DNA of 41,601 bases from assembly GCA_007693295.1 (NCBI GenBank), contig REDT01000201.1, positions 1 to 41,601 on the forward strand, in the 5' to 3' direction. The stretch's first letter is position 1, and every line of letters begins with the position of its first letter. Positions 11,936 to 41,601 of this stretch are shown in pieces. The notes under the pieces are model-generated. The model had not been told where the DNA came from and searched no databases. It saw only the letters and a list, made by a program, of their open reading frames with translations. This DNA comes from Balneolaceae bacterium (GTDB lineage: Bacteria > Bacteroidota > Rhodothermia > Balneolales > Balneolaceae). Made by a program: the position numbers and the translations under genes.

Positions 11936-12503
11936 CCTGACATCCGCATTTTATTACTTAGAAAATTCCCGATTTTGTTATTTAATGGGTTCTGAATGCA
12001 TGTATAAATATTTGGGTGTCCCAAGTGCTTAGTAGAAAGATTTATTCAGGATAGCTGAGAAAATGATTTGTAAACATAGTTTTGAGAATCTCTAATAATA
12101 AGGCAACCCAATAATGAACCAAGCCTGTCCGGCCTTGAATTCCCGGTTCACAAGGCGGAGCAGTGCATTACGAATCCTAAGTCACGCGGGGTACACTTCC
12201 GCCTATGAGCCGGAAATCAACAAGGCGTGACCTTGGATTCGTTCTGCATAGCTGCAGTGAACTGCTTGGGAATTCACAGCCTTGATTTTTCCCCATTGGG
12301 ATGCCTATGGCATGGTACTTTTGCACCTGTCCGACTACCGGCGGATCAAGACAAAAGTACATAGTCAATTAAATTCATCAATCTATCCTACGATTTAAAA
12401 ATCAAAGTGGAAAGTATCTGCACTAATAGACTTTATATGATTCCGATCAAGATTCTTTTCACATCAAAAAAATAAGAAATGGTGTCCCAGCGCGGAAGTC
12501 AGG
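11936..12503 (+). mobile_element. MITE-like element copy B (complete, 568 bp)
   Basis: The ends are inverted repeats: CCTGACATCCGC at 11936-11947 and GCGGAAGTCAGG at 12492-12503, 11 of 12 matching. The interior has no convincing gene. It holds a large imperfect hairpin whose arms, about 50 nt each (12137-12187 and 12225-12275), share GAATTCCC, GTTCAC/GTGAAC and ACGAATCC...TCACGC. It also has a GTACTTTTG/CAAAAGTAC hairpin (12315-12323 and 12352-12360). Copies A and C are clear homologues. Its right end lies two bases from the ribE stop codon and its left end about 150 bp beyond lptD, so it sits between convergent genes. No obvious target-site duplication was found. Confidence 0.75.
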
Positions 12504-29151: not shown

Positions 29152-29514
29152 ATGAGTGTTAAAGAAAAAATAACCGACGTTTATAATCACGTACAAAATG
29201 GAACCGCACTGGATGCATTTGAAAAATATTATGCTGATGATGTAACCATGATTCTTGAAGACGGAACCGCTGTTGAAGGAAAAGACGCCAACAGAGACCG
29301 CGAGAATGAGTTCTTTGCCAGTGTTGAATCATTCAACGGTATGGAAGTGGTGGGCATCGCCGCTAACGAAGAGACCGGCCAAACATCTGTAGAAAGCTGG
29401 ATGGACATCACCTTTAAAGGCGGAAACCGAATGAAGCTTGAGCAAGTTGCCACCCAGGATTGGGAAGACGGCAAAATTGTGAGAGAGCGATTTTATGGTA
29501 CGCAGCAGAATTAA
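29152..29514 (+). CDS. SnoaL-like / NTF2-fold protein
   Basis: A 120-residue cone-shaped alpha+beta barrel protein. VYNHVQNGTALDAFEKYYADDVTMILEDGTAVEGKDANRDRENEFFASVESF is a typical SnoaL-like N-terminal half, and the C-terminal strand MKLEQVATQDWEDGKIVRERFYGT closes the fold. Such proteins may be enzymes (cyclase or isomerase) or ligand-binding; the specific function cannot be assigned. It is 84 bp after the crotonase gene on the same strand. Repeat element R1 begins 10 bases beyond its stop. Confidence 0.88.
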   Translation: MSVKEKITDVYNHVQNGTALDAFEKYYADDVTMILEDGTAVEGKDANRDRENEFFASVESFNGMEVVGIAANEETGQTSVESWMDITFKGGNRMKLEQVATQDWEDGKIVRERFYGTQQN

Positions 29515-29523
29515 GAGCTGATA

Positions 29524-29868
29524 GTCCCCCTTCGAAGGGGGGATGTGCAAGAGCGCTAAGCGATTGCACTGGGGGGATGTTTACGGAGCGTTGATCTGCT
29601 TCAAGGTCATTTTAAGGCTACCGGAATTTACCAGACACACCCCTGCTTTTCGATAAGCTCACTTCGTGATTTATCTCAAACCGGTCCCCTCTCGAGAGGG
29701 GATGTACTGTCCCCCTTCGAAGGGGGGATAGTCAAACACGTTCAGTGGTTGACTTGGGGGGATGTATACGGAGCGTTGATCTGCTTCCGGGTTATATCAT
29801 AGATTCAATCCCCTACCCACATCCCCCTGAACCTCCGTTGTCGGTTCTTTCCCCCTTCAAAGGGGGAC
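29524..29868. repeat. hairpin-mosaic repeat R1 (SnoaL-like/hemF gap)
   Basis: The bounds are GTCCCCC at 29524 and GGGGGAC at 29868. The palindrome CCCCCTTCGAAGGGGG occurs at 29526-29541 and again at 29711-29726, each followed by a covarying hairpin: GTGCAA...TTGCAC at 29545-29569 and AGTCAA...TTGACT at 29730-29754. A third palindrome, CCCCTCTCGAGAGGGG, occurs near 29685. Two copies of the conserved box ggggggatgt-acggagcgttgatctgcttc follow the hairpins. It therefore looks like two tandem half-elements closed by CCCCCTTCAAAGGGGGAC. No gene is present. Confidence 0.8.
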
Positions 29869-29877
29869 ATTTCTTCT

Positions 29878-30795
29878 CTAAACCCACTCTCTCGGGTTTT
29901 TAAGCACCTCAAGCAGCTCTTCCTCTTTGGTGCCGGGCTCCGGATTGAAATCGTAATCCCAGCGAACGTGCGGGGGCAGGCTCATCAGGATCGATTCAAT
30001 GCGGCCGTTGGTTTTGAGGCCGAAGAGTGTCCCGCGGTCGTGGATCAGGTTGAACTCTACGTATCGGCCGCGGCGAATTTCCTGCCAGTATTTCTGGGCG
30101 GGGTTGAAGGGCTCAGGAATTCGGTTTCTCACAATGGGAAGATAGGCGTCCAGAAACACCTTGCCCGCATCGGTCGTAAATGTGTGCCAATCTTCAAGGG
30201 TTCTGTTTTCATCCGCTCTCAGATAATCGAAAAAGAGTCCGCCAACGCCACGTGCTTCACCACGATGGCTGTTAAAGAAATAGTCATCACACTGCTTTTT
30301 GAACTTCGGATAGAGATCCGGGCCATGACTGTCGCACACATCCTTAAAAATCTTATGAAAGTGCACGGCATCCTCGTCCCACAGATAATAAGGTGTAAGG
30401 TCTGCACCGCCGCCAAACCAGCCATCTGTACGCTGCTGCATCTCCTCATCTTCATACAGCTCAAAATACCTGAAGTTGGCATGAACAGTAGGTACCATCG
30501 GGCTGCCGGGGTGTATCACAAGTGAAATCCCTCCTGCCCAAAACCAGCCTTGGTCTACGTTAAAATGCTTCTTGATGGGATCAGGCAGCTCACCATGCAC
30601 GGTTGAGATATTGACGCCACCCTTCTCAATCACACCCCCTTTCTCAATTACCCGGGTGCGCCCGCCACCCCCGCCATCGCGCTCCCAGTTATCTTCGCGA
30701 AATGCAGCCTTACCATCCACCTCTTCCAGTGCCGTGCAGATTTCATCCTGCAGAGTTTCAATGTAGGTGGTAAAGGATTGTTTGATTGAGGACAT
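29878..30795 (-). CDS. hemF: oxygen-dependent coproporphyrinogen-III oxidase
   Basis: Converts coproporphyrinogen III to protoporphyrinogen IX with O2. The ATG at 30795 (MSSIKQSFTTYIETLQDEICTALEE) gives 305 residues, the usual size; a longer frame to 30852 begins inside repeat R2 and is spurious. Conserved segments are RDGGGGGRTRVIEKGGV, PTVHANFRYFE, GWFGGGADLTPYYL, FFDYL and YVEFNLIHDRGTLFGLKTNGRIESILMSLPP. An oxygen-requiring HemF implies aerobic growth; the anaerobic HemN is not in this window. It is the last gene of the minus-strand heme cluster. Confidence 0.95.
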   Translation of the reverse strand: MSSIKQSFTTYIETLQDEICTALEEVDGKAAFREDNWERDGGGGGRTRVIEKGGVIEKGGVNISTVHGELPDPIKKHFNVDQGWFWAGGISLVIHPGSPMVPTVHANFRYFELYEDEEMQQRTDGWFGGGADLTPYYLWDEDAVHFHKIFKDVCDSHGPDLYPKFKKQCDDYFFNSHRGEARGVGGLFFDYLRADENRTLEDWHTFTTDAGKVFLDAYLPIVRNRIPEPFNPAQKYWQEIRRGRYVEFNLIHDRGTLFGLKTNGRIESILMSLPPHVRWDYDFNPEPGTKEEELLEVLKNPREWV

Positions 30796-30825
30796 TTGTG
30801 ACCTTATTAATTTGGGATTTAAAGA

Positions 30826-30980
30826 GTCCCCCTTAGAAGGGGGTATGTGCAAGAGCGTTTAGCGATTGCACTGGGGGATGTTTGCGGGGCGTTGAGCTAA
30901 ATCGGGCTTATTCCAAGACTCCTGCCTTTACCTTCATCCCCCTCGGCTCTTAAGAGCCTCTCCCCCCTTCGAAGGGGGAC
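30826..30980. repeat. hairpin-mosaic repeat R2 (hemF/hemE gap)
   Basis: 155 bp from GTCCCCCTTAGAAGGGGG at 30826 to CCCCCTTCGAAGGGGGAC ending at 30980. It carries the GTGCAA...TTGCAC hairpin at 30847-30871 and the gcggggcgttga box. It fills almost all of the gap between hemE (stop at 31005) and hemF (start at 30795), so any promoter for hemF must lie inside or across it. Confidence 0.8.
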
Positions 30981-31004
30981 AATTCATCCGCGCAATCCCC
31001 TCAA

Positions 31005-32048
31005 TCAGCGCTCATACTCCTTAACACTATCCACAAACGCGCGCGCATGATCAACCGGCACATGTGGCAAAATGCCGTGGCCCAGATTGGCGATGTAGCG
31101 CTGAACGCCGAAGCGGTCGATCATTCGTTTGGTCTGTTTTTTGATTTCGGGTATGGGTGCAAGAAGATGCGTTGGATCAAAATTACCCTGAAGCGTTATG
31201 GAGTTCCGAGTTTTTTCGCGGGCAAATTCGGGTGACGTGGTCCAGTCGAGGCCCAGGGCTGCAGCACCGCTTTTGAAGCTTAACCGCTCAAGGGCATACC
31301 ACGAACCTTTCGCAAACAGTATAACCGGCACACCCTTGATCGCCTGCGTGATCTCCATCAAATAAGGCATTGCCCATTCATTAAAATCGTCGGGACTGAG
31401 CAGACCCGACCAGGAATCAAATATCTGCACCGCCTGTGCACCGGCTTCCACCTGCGCCTGCAGATAGTCGATCGTGGCCTTTGTGAGCTCTTTCATAACA
31501 TGGCGGGATGCGTCAGGATTCTGAAACAGAAACGCTTTGGCTTTATCAAAATTTTTAGACCCCTCACCCTGAACCATGTAGCAGAATAGCGTCCACGGCG
31601 CGCCGGCAAAACCGATGAGCGGCACGCGCCCGTTCAGCTCTTTGCGCGTAAGCGTGATCGCGTCCATCACGTGACTCAATTTCTCAGGCACATCTTCAGC
31701 CAGGATGGCAAAAGCGTCATCTACGGTTTTGATCGGATTTCCCATTACAGGACCCTTTCCGGGAATCATCTGCACATCGATGTTGAGCGCCTGCGGAACC
31801 GTCAGAATATCCGAAAAGATGATGGCCGCATCCGGTTCCAGCTCATCAATGGGCTGTATGGTGATCTCACATGCCAGCTCGGGAGTTTCCACCCTTTCAA
31901 AAAAAGTGTACTTCTTTCGAAGCACCATATACTGCGGCAGGTAGCGTCCGGCCTGACGCATCATCCACACCGGCGGGCGCTCCACCTCCTCTCCTCTAAG
32001 TGCGCGAAGGAATAGGTCGTTTTTTAAATCAGGGAAGTTGTGTTGCAT
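31005..32048 (-). CDS. hemE: uroporphyrinogen decarboxylase
   Basis: Decarboxylates uroporphyrinogen III to coproporphyrinogen III. The 347-residue protein has the N-terminal signature RPPVWMMRQAGRYLPQY (Arg31, Arg35) and FSDILTVPQAL with Asp80, both in the substrate cleft. GFAGAPWTLFCYMVQGEGSKNF and the C-terminal YIANLGHGILPHVP are also conserved. It lies between repeats R2 and R3, so it may not be strictly co-transcribed with its neighbours despite sharing their strand. Confidence 0.96.
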   Translation of the reverse strand: MQHNFPDLKNDLFLRALRGEEVERPPVWMMRQAGRYLPQYMVLRKKYTFFERVETPELACEITIQPIDELEPDAAIIFSDILTVPQALNIDVQMIPGKGPVMGNPIKTVDDAFAILAEDVPEKLSHVMDAITLTRKELNGRVPLIGFAGAPWTLFCYMVQGEGSKNFDKAKAFLFQNPDASRHVMKELTKATIDYLQAQVEAGAQAVQIFDSWSGLLSPDDFNEWAMPYLMEITQAIKGVPVILFAKGSWYALERLSFKSGAAALGLDWTTSPEFAREKTRNSITLQGNFDPTHLLAPIPEIKKQTKRMIDRFGVQRYIANLGHGILPHVPVDHARAFVDSVKEYER

Positions 32049-32094
32049 GGTGTTGAGTTATAATGGTGAATATTTTTTTGGTTTGGTATTTGAA

Positions 32095-32286
32095 GTCCCC
32101 CTTAGAAGGGGGAAAGCCACGCCTCAGGCGTGGCAGGGGGATGAGGGTAAGGCTACAAGCTTATGAAATAACATAGATATAGATCAACGCTCCGCAGACA
32201 TCCCCCCAGTGCATTCGCTTAGCGCTATTGCACATCCCCTCCGCCAGCTGGCGGAGAGACAGTACATCCCCCCTTCTAAGGGGGAC
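32095..32286. repeat. hairpin-mosaic repeat R3 (hemE/hemD gap)
   Basis: 192 bp from GTCCCCCTTAGAAGGGGG to CCCCCCTTCTAAGGGGGAC. It contains GCCACGCC-TCA-GGCGTGGC (near 32112-32130), the palindrome CTCCGCCAGCTGGCGGAG (near 32239-32256), and the conserved hairpin in reverse orientation (32209-32233). In that hairpin the outer pair is mismatched (GTGCAT with TTGCAC). The final palindrome supplies the last codons and the stop of the hemD-nuclease frame. Confidence 0.8.
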
Positions 32287-32748
32287 TTTTCTTTCCTAAT
32301 TTTTCAATCCAGTACATGATTTCACTTTCTACATTTCGTAAATCTTTCATCACATCTTCATCGGTAAATCTGAGTACTTTAAAACCTGCTTCTTCAAGCT
32401 CTTTTTGACGTTCTTTATCTTTTTTCCACTGCTGCTCAAACTCATGCGAATATCCATCCAGCTCAATGATCAACTTAAGCTCTTTACACAAAAAATCAGC
32501 TATATAATTCAACACAGGTCTTTGCCGGAGAAATGTATACCCAGTCTTTGTTGAGCTTAGAAGTTCTGTCCACAGGCGGATTTCTGATTTAGTGGAATTG
32601 TTACGAAGCTGTTGGGCGAGTTGTTTGAGAGATTTGTTGTAGTATAGGAATCTGTCTTGGTCAATGCCCTGCAATTCCGATGCCTTAGCTTTTCGATTGG
32701 GGAGATTCTTCTCATCCCCCATTGCCCTCCGTCGGCTGACGGAGGGAC
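32276..32748 (-). mobile_element. candidate mobile cassette: DUF559 nuclease domain between repeats R4 and R3
   Basis: The nuclease-coding segment of the hemD frame begins at GTCCCTCCGTC...GACGGAGGG (R4, minus strand from 32748) and ends in AGTCCCCCTTAG (R3). Both boundaries belong to the same repeat family as R1, R2 and R5. The arrangement suggests that a nuclease gene plus flanking hairpins was inserted at the 3' end of hemD and became fused to it. Mobility is inference; no target duplication or second nuclease copy is visible. Confidence 0.4.
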
Positions 32749-33502
32749 ACTCCATAGCCGGTTTCTGTTCATCTAAAATCCTGACCACAAACCTCAATAA
32801 CACCTCCGTATCCGGTTCGGGGGAGACGTGGACGTGCTGACCCGATTCGATGCTCAGCTCTTCTGCAGTGGTATTTCCAATAGCAAAGAGCTCCGGGAGA
32901 TCCTCCTTCTTGCTGAACCCGCCGCTGTTTCTATATGCCTGCACGGCGCTGGGGCTGTAAAAGAGTACCGCATCAAATTTACCGCCCGGCAGATTCATCT
33001 CGTTCAATTCAGTTCTATAGACTACTACATCTTTGATAGGGATATCCGAATCTGTAAGGTAGTGCCGAAGCTCGTTCCGGCGACGGTCACCACAAAAGTG
33101 CAGAACGGTCGCATCATTGAAGTCTCGCGTTTGAAGAAAGTCGTTGATAATAAGATGTGCCAGCCCAACGCCATCCTGCTGTACCGGAGACTTCACATCA
33201 GAGAATCCAATCTCATTCAGGGCTTCCGATGTTTTGCCGCCCACGCCATAAACAGGTGCGTCATCATTTATCTTAACGCCGGCTTTTCTAAAACGCTGAA
33301 ACCCGGCCACCCCATTCCGGCTGGTAAATGCAAAAACCGGTTTTTCAGTCTCTTTCAAAATCGATTCAAAAGCAAGCCAGTCGTTTCGGAATTCAATTCT
33401 GATTGCCGGTTCAACTACCACATTCAGGCCTATACTCTCTGCGAGACTGAGCTGTTCATCGCTCAGTTCGCGGGTAACAAGTATGTTGTGGGTTTTGGTC
33501 AT
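32276..33502 (-). CDS. hemD: uroporphyrinogen-III synthase fused in frame to a DUF559 (Vsr/PD-(D/E)XK-like) nuclease domain
   Basis: A 408-residue open frame. Residues 1-248 match HemD in size and context (LVTRELSDEQLSLAESIGL, FTSRNGVAGFQRF, VLHFCGDRRRNELRHYL, FDAVLFYSPSAVQAYR). It makes uroporphyrinogen III from hydroxymethylbilane and lies next to hemC. Residues about 251-266 are encoded by repeat R4. Residues about 286-405 are a DUF559 domain with TKSEIRLWTELLSS, FLRQRPVLNYIADFLCKELKLIIELDGYSHE (the D...E-x-D nuclease core) and VLRFTDEDVMKDL. The protein ends KKSPP inside repeat R3. Normal bacterial HemD is about 245-260 residues, so the extension is extra. An internal start near Met250 or Met261 could yield a free nuclease. 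Confidence 0.85.
   Translation of the reverse strand: MTKTHNILVTRELSDEQLSLAESIGLNVVVEPAIRIEFRNDWLAFESILKETEKPVFAFTSRNGVAGFQRFRKAGVKINDDAPVYGVGGKTSEALNEIGFSDVKSPVQQDGVGLAHLIINDFLQTRDFNDATVLHFCGDRRRNELRHYLTDSDIPIKDVVVYRTELNEMNLPGGKFDAVLFYSPSAVQAYRNSGGFSKKEDLPELFAIGNTTAEELSIESGQHVHVSPEPDTEVLLRFVVRILDEQKPAMECPSVSRRRAMGDEKNLPNRKAKASELQGIDQDRFLYYNKSLKQLAQQLRNNSTKSEIRLWTELLSSTKTGYTFLRQRPVLNYIADFLCKELKLIIELDGYSHEFEQQWKKDKERQKELEEAGFKVLRFTDEDVMKDLRNVESEIMYWIEKLGKKSPP
32708..32748 (-). repeat. hairpin-mosaic repeat R4, inside the hemD frame
   Basis: On the minus strand it starts GTCCCTCCGTC, with arms CTCCGTC/GACGGAG around GGCT or AGCC, then GGGCAATGGGGGATGAG. It is a short member of the heme-region repeats; the closest match is the GTCCCTCCGCC...GGCGGAGGGGAT start of R5. 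It is translated in frame as about 16 residues (ECPSVSRRRAMGDEKN). Confidence 0.7.
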
Positions 33503-33519
33503 TTGCTTCTGTTTTTCAG

Positions 33520-33735
33520 GTCCCTCCGCCAGCCGGCGGAGGGGATGCTATATCCCCCTTAGAAGGGGGGATGTGCATGAGCGTTAAGCGAATGCACTGG
33601 GGGGATGTATACGGAGCGTTGATCAAATTCCGGTTTAATTCGGGCTTCGAACCCTTACCTTACATCCCCCTCGTCACGCCATGGGCGTGACTCTGCCCCC
33701 TTCTCCCATAGGGATCCCTACGGGGGAAGGGGGAC
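33520..33735. repeat. hairpin-mosaic repeat R5 (hemD/hemC gap)
   Basis: 216 bp from GTCCCTCCGCCAGCCGGCGG to GGGGGAC. It holds CCCCCTTAGAAGGGGG near 33554, the covarying hairpin GTGCAT...ATGCAC (33573-33597), the acggagcgttgatc box, GTCACGCC-ATG-GGCGTGAC near 33673-33691 and TAGGGATCCCTA near 33708-33719. Its last C is the first base of the hemC stop codon read from the plus strand, so the element abuts hemC exactly. Confidence 0.8.
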
Positions 33736-41175: not shown

Positions 41176-41601
41176 CCTGAACTCCGCATTTTTTTTACAT
41201 AGAAATTTTCCGGTATTGATAATTAATGGGTTCTGAATGCATGAATGAACATTTGGGTGTCCCAAGGGATTAGAAGAAATATGTATTCAGGATAGCTGAG
41301 AAAATGATTCGTAAATATCGTTTTGAGTCTATTGAATAAAAAAGAAAACCCAATTACTGCACTAAGATTGCCCGGCCTTGAATTCCCGGTTCGCAAGGTG
41401 TAGCAGTGCATTACGAATCCTAAGTCACGCAGGGTACGCTTCCGACTAAGGACCGAAAACCAACAAGGCGTGACCTTGGATTCGTTCTGCGGAGCTGAAG
41501 CGAACGGTTTCGGGAATTCACCGCCTTGATTTTTTGGTACTTTTGTACCTGTCCGACTACCGGCGGATCAAGACAAAAGTACATAGTCAATTAAATTCAT
41601 C
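41176..41601 (+). mobile_element. MITE-like element copy C (truncated by window edge)
   Basis: The left terminal repeat CCTGAACTCCGC (41176-41187) matches the left end of copy B. The following text is homologous throughout, including ttcaggatagctgagaaaa and gcagtgcattacgaatcc. The hairpin arms lie at 41380-41430 and 41468-41519. GTACTTTTG (41537-41545) pairs with CAAAAGTAC (41574-41582), as in copy B. The window ends before the right terminus. It lies about 150 bases downstream of the SDR stop. Confidence 0.75.

Follow-up and report, generated by a model that had tools for sequence, protein, structure and literature searches.

In-frame fusion of HemD with a DUF559 nuclease in a Balneolaceae bacterium points to a palindrome-bounded mobile gene

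The heme cluster of the window and its fused hemD

The window, meaning the whole 41,601-nucleotide stretch that was analysed (contig REDT01000201.1 of a Balneolaceae bacterium), carries a heme cluster with hemH, hemA, hemC, hemD, hemE and hemF (hemH assigned by sequence alone). No methyltransferase was identified among the hem-cluster ORFs scanned with Pfam. The HemD of relatives terminates at about residue 245-250; here the frame (32276..33502, minus strand) continues unbroken into a DUF559 nuclease domain, giving a product of 408 aa. The features of this region are the following.

29511..29868, no strand: gene-less repeat, two adjacent copies downstream of hemF (from the sequence and the genome repeat count)
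30822..30989, no strand: gene-less repeat between hemF and hemE, one end of which forms part of the open frame upstream of hemF (IPPSKGD)
32095..32290, no strand: gene-less, hairpin-ended (MITE-like) repeat between hemE and the nuclease, opposite in orientation to the repeat found there in the sister species
32269..32284, no strand: right-side palindrome CCCCCTTCTAAGGGGG, which provides the stop codon of the fusion (sequence, genome repeat count)
32276..33502, minus strand: whole HemD-DUF559 fusion ORF, 408 aa (sequence, Pfam, AlphaFold2)
32309..32632, minus strand: DUF559 nuclease domain (Vsr-like/EDxHD fold), residues 291-398, conserved family residues intact (Pfam, Foldseek)
32713..32746, minus strand: left element end, translated; palindrome CCCTCCGTCAGCCGACGGAGGG plus CAATGGGGGATG, encoding the linker CPSVSRRRAMGD (sequence, relatives)
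32753..33502, minus strand: hemD (uroporphyrinogen-III synthase) portion, residues 1-250 (Pfam HEM4, Foldseek 4es6, end of HemD in relatives)
33514..33735, no strand: gene-less repeat between hemC and hemD (sequence)

Pfam places HEM4 at residues 20-236 (E 2.4e-31) and DUF559 at residues 291-398 (E 4e-30), both far over the cut-off. DUF559 is the sole Pfam domain of the hairpin-bounded unit, and an overlapping match to the related MTES_1575 model stays below its cut-off. Between the two domains the linker is a translated perfect palindrome, CCCTCCGTCAGCCGACGGAGGG (32725-32746), followed by GGGGGATG, and the stop codon TAG sits within the next palindrome, CCCCCTTAGAAGGGGG (32269-32284). The earlier note had described just such a frame, from HemD through a repeat into DUF559 with its stop in the next repeat, and the unbroken ORF and the Pfam matches bear it out. 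The left end (GTGTCCCCCTTCGAAGGGGGCAATGGGGGATG) is identical in the sister species (G001), closely similar in G024, and has an ssDNA fold z of -4.0. The AlphaFold2 model of the fusion consists of two confident domains (most residues >90 pLDDT) and a disordered stretch at residues 255-280 that corresponds to the repeat-coded linker. An assembly chimera or error was considered as the source of the fusion and dismissed, because the independent assembly of a second genome, from another genus (G100), contains an in-frame HemD-DUF559 fusion of this kind (446 aa).

Foldseek matches the first domain to HemD structures (4es6) and the second to the DUF559 protein 3hrl (TMt 0.86). The second domain also matches the catalytic domain of the homing endonuclease I-Bth0305I (3r3p; prob 1.00, TMt 0.82, rmsd 2.9, 26% identity), so that on structural grounds the window nuclease has the EDxHD/Vsr catalytic fold; the Vsr HMM itself matches it weakly. 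The Vsr/EDxHD nuclease group is known to include a phage homing endonuclease (PMC3943268). Residues E17, D46, E57, D59 and H63 are invariant in 12 divergent DUF559 sequences, the window copy included (domain numbering). Substitution rates (pN 0.11-0.17 vs pS 0.68-0.81) indicate that the nuclease is under purifying selection. Its matches to defence-system models are weak. Carriage by phages or plasmids was dismissed as a main route, with 2 phage and 37 plasmid records, each below 60% identity.

Cognate repeats with and without a nuclease gene

The 3.56 Mb genome holds 42 copies of the palindrome CCCCCTTNNAAGGGGG and 0 of the reversed control. Eight of these exact copies fall in 4.1 kb of the heme cluster (29511-33735), far denser than elsewhere, and several of them are the paired ends of gene-less units of 115-175 nt. 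Across all fetched loci, the distance between successive palindromes takes two forms: 96-172 nt where no nuclease lies in between, and about 415-563 nt where one does. The simple pattern used did not recognise a nuclease in a few pairs whose spacing is close to the longer class or slightly under it. Read inward, each end consists of the palindrome, a variable stem-loop or few-base spacer, and then GGGGGATG or its clade-specific equivalent, with the complement at the opposite end.

The repeat at 32095-32290 is inverted between the window species and its sister (locus L005), as if recombination between its ends had flipped it. In the same pair, the core of the hemD-site palindrome (32725-32746) is CCCTCCGTCAGCCGACGGAGGG here and CCCCCTTCGAAGGGGG in the sister, with conserved flanking bases; point mutation does not easily explain this difference, which suggests a swap of the whole palindrome. 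Elsewhere in the window, 11949-12379 and 41190-41601 form a long direct repeat (83-99% identical), and the contig ends inside the second copy, probably through an assembly break at the repeat.

All three DUF559 genes of the window genome lie between hairpin repeats, of three different kinds. DUF559 is present in 65 of the 92 genomes of the family. At 39 of 59 DUF559 loci of the family the inverted-repeat score between the flanks exceeds the 99th percentile of control windows (p 4e-25), as it does at 48 of 79 further named loci in Bacteroidota, Planctomycetota, Deltaproteobacteria and KSB1 (p 2e-24); these 79 include Pontibacter, Rufibacter, Pedobacter and Fodinibius and are partly the same places as the first 59. 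The contig scan for DUF559 loci was built on a closer alignment, the broad alignment of 12 sequences being too diverse, and many of the compared genomes are MAGs. Recognisable terminal repeats are absent at about one third of the loci tested, which would be old or degenerate copies or have other life styles, such as those in RecG and restriction enzymes.

The kind of repeat also goes with the nuclease. When loci in different genomes and at unrelated sites are paired and only noncoding flanks compared, pairs that have at least 10 flank 10-mers in common make up 73% where the nucleases are 65% or more identical and 3% where their identity is below 50%, a difference reached by none of 5000 permutations. 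The window palindrome has a median of 10.5 copies in genomes with the window's nuclease clade and 0 in those without it (p 1.4e-8). On this comparison, hairpin type follows nuclease clade, and nuclease and repeats match each other and travel together.

Alternatively, DUF559 could be mere cargo of segments that a Y1 (RAYT-like) transposase, or another enzyme encoded outside the unit, moves in trans. Y1 transposases are indeed found in 65 of 92 genomes, and the number of Y1 genes correlates with palindrome copy number. However, none of 20 Y1 loci has the window palindrome in its fetched flanks (mostly 2 kb on each side), the Y1 flanks inspected by eye hold other repeats or none, and the median palindrome count is 1 in genomes with Y1 only, compared with 11 in those with both Y1 and the nuclease clade. 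Since the repeat type moreover tracks the nuclease clade, we regard the cargo explanation as unlikely, though it keeps some weight. About half of the fetched Y1 genes (L158-L177) have terminal inverted repeats of their own, of kinds other than the tested DUF559 palindrome.

Gain, loss and in-frame entry of the segment

In many members of the genus, hemD and hemE are separated by just 17-68 nt without such a repeat. A nuclease lies between them in seven genomes of two genera, in frame with HemD in the window genome (G000) and G100, and as a separate ORF in G101, G007, G013, G008 and G025. The hemD-site nucleases are monophyletic (support 93/96) for the six of seven in the tree; the G100 copy, absent from the tree because of the pattern-matching, is 81% identical to that of the window. 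Their hosts are not grouped together in the HemD tree, so one old insertion followed by losses and repeated insertion are inseparable on these trees. Three pairs of relatives differ in the presence of the gene (G000/G001, G008/G002 and G025/G014), an allele with the nuclease thus being matched by a sister allele without it. The sister species G001, whose HemD is 96.8% identical, retains the two element ends at the hemD site without the nuclease gene; G024 likewise has both ends and no gene. G002, sister of G008, has a single palindrome in place of the element, and G014, related to G025, has one palindrome and a G-run.

The earlier note proposed that a nuclease gene flanked by hairpins had recently inserted at the hemD 3' end and kept the frame open. 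Its inserted element stands. What does not hold up is a one-off, recent event in the window species without wider meaning: the sister species does lack the nuclease at this site, which the note would have counted in favour of a recent insertion, but it retains the hairpin ends and a read-through HemD tail. This tail (type CPPLKGAMGDD) is common to G000, G001, G024 and G100, so the open frame predates the species. With the same in-frame fusion in another genus (G100) and the same nuclease clade at hemD-hemE in five more genomes, the relatives largely refute a one-off insertion, which we consider very improbable. Instead, the HemD fusion looks older than the window species, its sisters having lost the nuclease gene.

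Pairwise comparisons indicate that the segment bounded by the palindromes has a history of its own. Between G007 and G013 the sequence outside the element is mostly 77-90% identical (77-87% for the flanks) and that inside 92-98%, and the change in identity falls at the outer palindrome edges; dS is 0.12 for the nuclease compared with 1.02 for the adjacent HemD. Beyond the right palindrome, G007 has an apparent remnant of an older nuclease copy, with traces in G013. In another clade and at another locus (G011 vs G021), the element is 97-99% identical and the flanks 60-85%. There the high identity starts at the left palindrome and stops near the gene end, before the right palindrome, a boundary that could fit a conversion tract. 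G075 has two copies, 3.25 kb apart, that are 99.6% identical over 540 nt. In G094 a DUF559 element lies in frame between domains of PheT (994 aa ORF), and PheT is uninterrupted in five relatives, which fixes the direction as gain. No palindrome is present at the PheT site in the four relatives whose site was read. Neither the PheT insertion nor the G075 copies show a clear target-site duplication, and the palindromes at both ends obscure it. From these comparisons, gain, loss or replacement of the palindrome-bounded segment is independent of the neighbouring sequence, and the segment leaves behind gene-less copies with the same ends as well as single palindromes.

Hosts other than HemD are entered in frame too. 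In Aliifodinibius salipaludis, Fodinibius salsisoli, F. halophilus and one congeneric species, a clade-A DUF559 is joined to the N-terminus of HemF. These fusions have no ATG or GTG from the interior of the nuclease domain to the HemF core; a single in-frame TTG is found in two of the species only, 8 or 16 codons ahead of the conserved RFRHDDW, which is too late to start a full HemF. As there is no plausible start for HemF alone, the HemF of these Fodinibius-group species is most likely produced as a DUF559 fusion. Further in-frame hosts are HsdM, HsdR, RecG, RNase H, an M23 peptidase, type ISP and type IIG restriction enzymes, N-formylglutamate amidohydrolase and a glutamine amidotransferase, and strong terminal repeats are seen at many of these loci. 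No Hint/intein splicing family was detected in ten fusion ORFs scanned. As judged from these cases, the element enters genes in frame and the host gains an appended or inserted nuclease and a disordered linker, with no splicing domain. What allows in-frame entry is that translation can pass through the palindromic ends (PPSKG, PPLKG).

Throughout the phylum, many unrelated host proteins have a DUF559 domain in frame, either within them or next to them, as in pheT (L284), hsdM (L285-L286), recG (L287-L289), RNase H (L297) and L291, L294 and L300. The RecG-DUF559 cases come from three genera, and their repeats are no longer visible. In L070, L074 and L102 the domain is part of type IIG restriction-modification-like ORFs of 1330-1484 aa, placed in L074 between DUF7149/DUF7814 and the Eco57I/TaqI_C domains; these are possibly old captured insertions.

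It could be argued that the nuclease fusions of HemD and HemF serve the cell, for instance in heme-linked DNA repair or defence, given that both of these heme genes are hit in the family, that the frames remain open in several species and that the nuclease is under purifying selection. Against such an adaptation, the partners are unrelated (HemD, HemF, PheT, RecG, HsdM, RNase H, peptidase), the side of attachment varies, the closest relatives lack the fusion and the linkers consist of the mobile repeats, all of which makes it highly improbable. An ordinary VsrA-like mismatch endonuclease gene with terminators or chance repeats beside it is scarcely credible: the Caulobacter DUF559 protein does behave as a Vsr repair enzyme (PMC12907096), but here inverted hairpins stand at both ends and also genome-wide without the gene, gene-less copies with both ends exist, and the hairpins mark the borders of segment transfer. 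Transcription terminators as such were dismissed for the hairpins, which are inverted at both ends and also bound transferred segments.

A candidate mobile element and its relation to known systems

We therefore consider it probable, from genome comparison, that the extra domain of HemD represents the coding portion of a mobile element of very small size, namely a Vsr-like DUF559 nuclease gene with inward-facing palindromes of its own type on either side. The element is best read as homing-endonuclease-like and about 430-560 bp long, with gene-less derivatives, located near or in host ORFs without splicing. Its mobility and its cognate repeats emerge from comparison among genomes; for the mechanism we infer cleavage of palindromes and copying by repair. 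Translated either within a fusion or from a start located in the end repeat, the nuclease would cut or nick DNA at a cognate palindrome copy or at a site not yet occupied. The element would then be copied in by repair or by ectopic gene conversion, with the repeats as template. Since the palindromic core is a direct and an inverted repeat at once, slippage or recombination between the two ends could delete the gene and leave one palindrome. In the window, the hemD element would have been inherited with its frame open and the sister species would have lost the gene, with no service to HemD required of the nuclease. As the PheT site is free of palindromes in relatives, a pure model of homing into palindromes misses some insertions, and the PheT case would need nuclease integration at palindrome-free sites, or a helper.

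Like the EDxHD homing endonucleases, the element has a small, selfish-looking nuclease gene that one allele carries and a sister allele lacks, shows conversion limited to a segment, and inserts beside or inside conserved genes; with I-Bth0305I it shares the catalytic fold (TM-score on target 0.82). Unlike the I-Bth0305I type, it has terminal palindromic inverted repeats and dozens of gene-less copies, no DNA-binding extension past the ~110-residue domain, and a chromosomal location in Bacteroidota and relatives rather than in phage, and site-specific cleavage is only putative here.

RAYT genes are a known case of palindrome-flanked enzyme genes, and CGTC palindromes are reportedly without a dedicated transposase (PMC3733652). 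The DUF559 element resembles the REP/REPIN plus RAYT (TnpA-REP) 'REPtrons' in that one small enzyme gene is flanked by matching palindromes that are also found alone in the genome, with many non-autonomous copies. Its enzyme, in contrast, is a PD-(D/E)XK/EDxHD nuclease and not an HUH Y1 transposase (PF01797), which is absent from the DUF559 unit, where Pfam finds DUF559 only. Both kinds of enzyme coexist in these genomes, and the window palindrome is absent from the flanks of the 20 Y1 genes.

Palindromic repeats that can be translated within host proteins are also typical of the Rickettsia palindromic elements (RPE); the DUF559 palindromes bring a nuclease domain along, whereas to our knowledge RPEs carry no gene. 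As with inteins that contain a homing endonuclease, the nuclease is found in frame within essential host proteins (PheT, RecG) and likewise in the ORFs of HsdM and HsdR, but the fusions lack a splicing (Hint) domain and the nuclease stays in place, apparently in a loop or linker. Terminal inverted repeats (39/59 and 48/79 DUF559 loci) recall classical insertion sequences; no known transposase (DDE, HUH, serine or tyrosine recombinase) was found in the DUF559 unit with Pfam. The Pfam family and fold are those of Caulobacter crescentus VsrA and gonococcal NGO0050 (3hrl). VsrA, characterised as Vsr-like, is a proposed mismatch-repair enzyme, and its description makes no mention of palindromic repeats (PMC12907096). 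In the open-access literature we found no description of DUF559 together with palindromic or inverted repeats or with mobility, most subscription papers and preprints lying outside that search.

The element would thus be a homing-endonuclease-like or REPtron-like variant, with a fair chance of being its own class. The chances seem about even that it represents a separate class of mobile DNA, in which a Vsr-like nuclease, as the only enzyme, would recognise its own end palindromes, spread itself and gene-less derivatives, invade genes in frame without splicing, and mobilise part of the palindromic repeats that lack a dedicated transposase. On that same reading, at about 430-560 bp it would be among the smallest elements encoding their own enzyme.

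Palindromic repeats are common in bacterial genomes, and the DUF559 family offers a testable enzyme for such repeats, since it is consistently bounded by matching palindromes, with which it transfers as one piece, and since copies lacking the gene are left behind. Caution is called for with annotated 'DUF559 fusion' proteins, many of which may be insertions and not functional designs. The in-frame invasion of important genes (HemD, HemF, PheT) without splicing illustrates how selfish DNA can create multidomain proteins.
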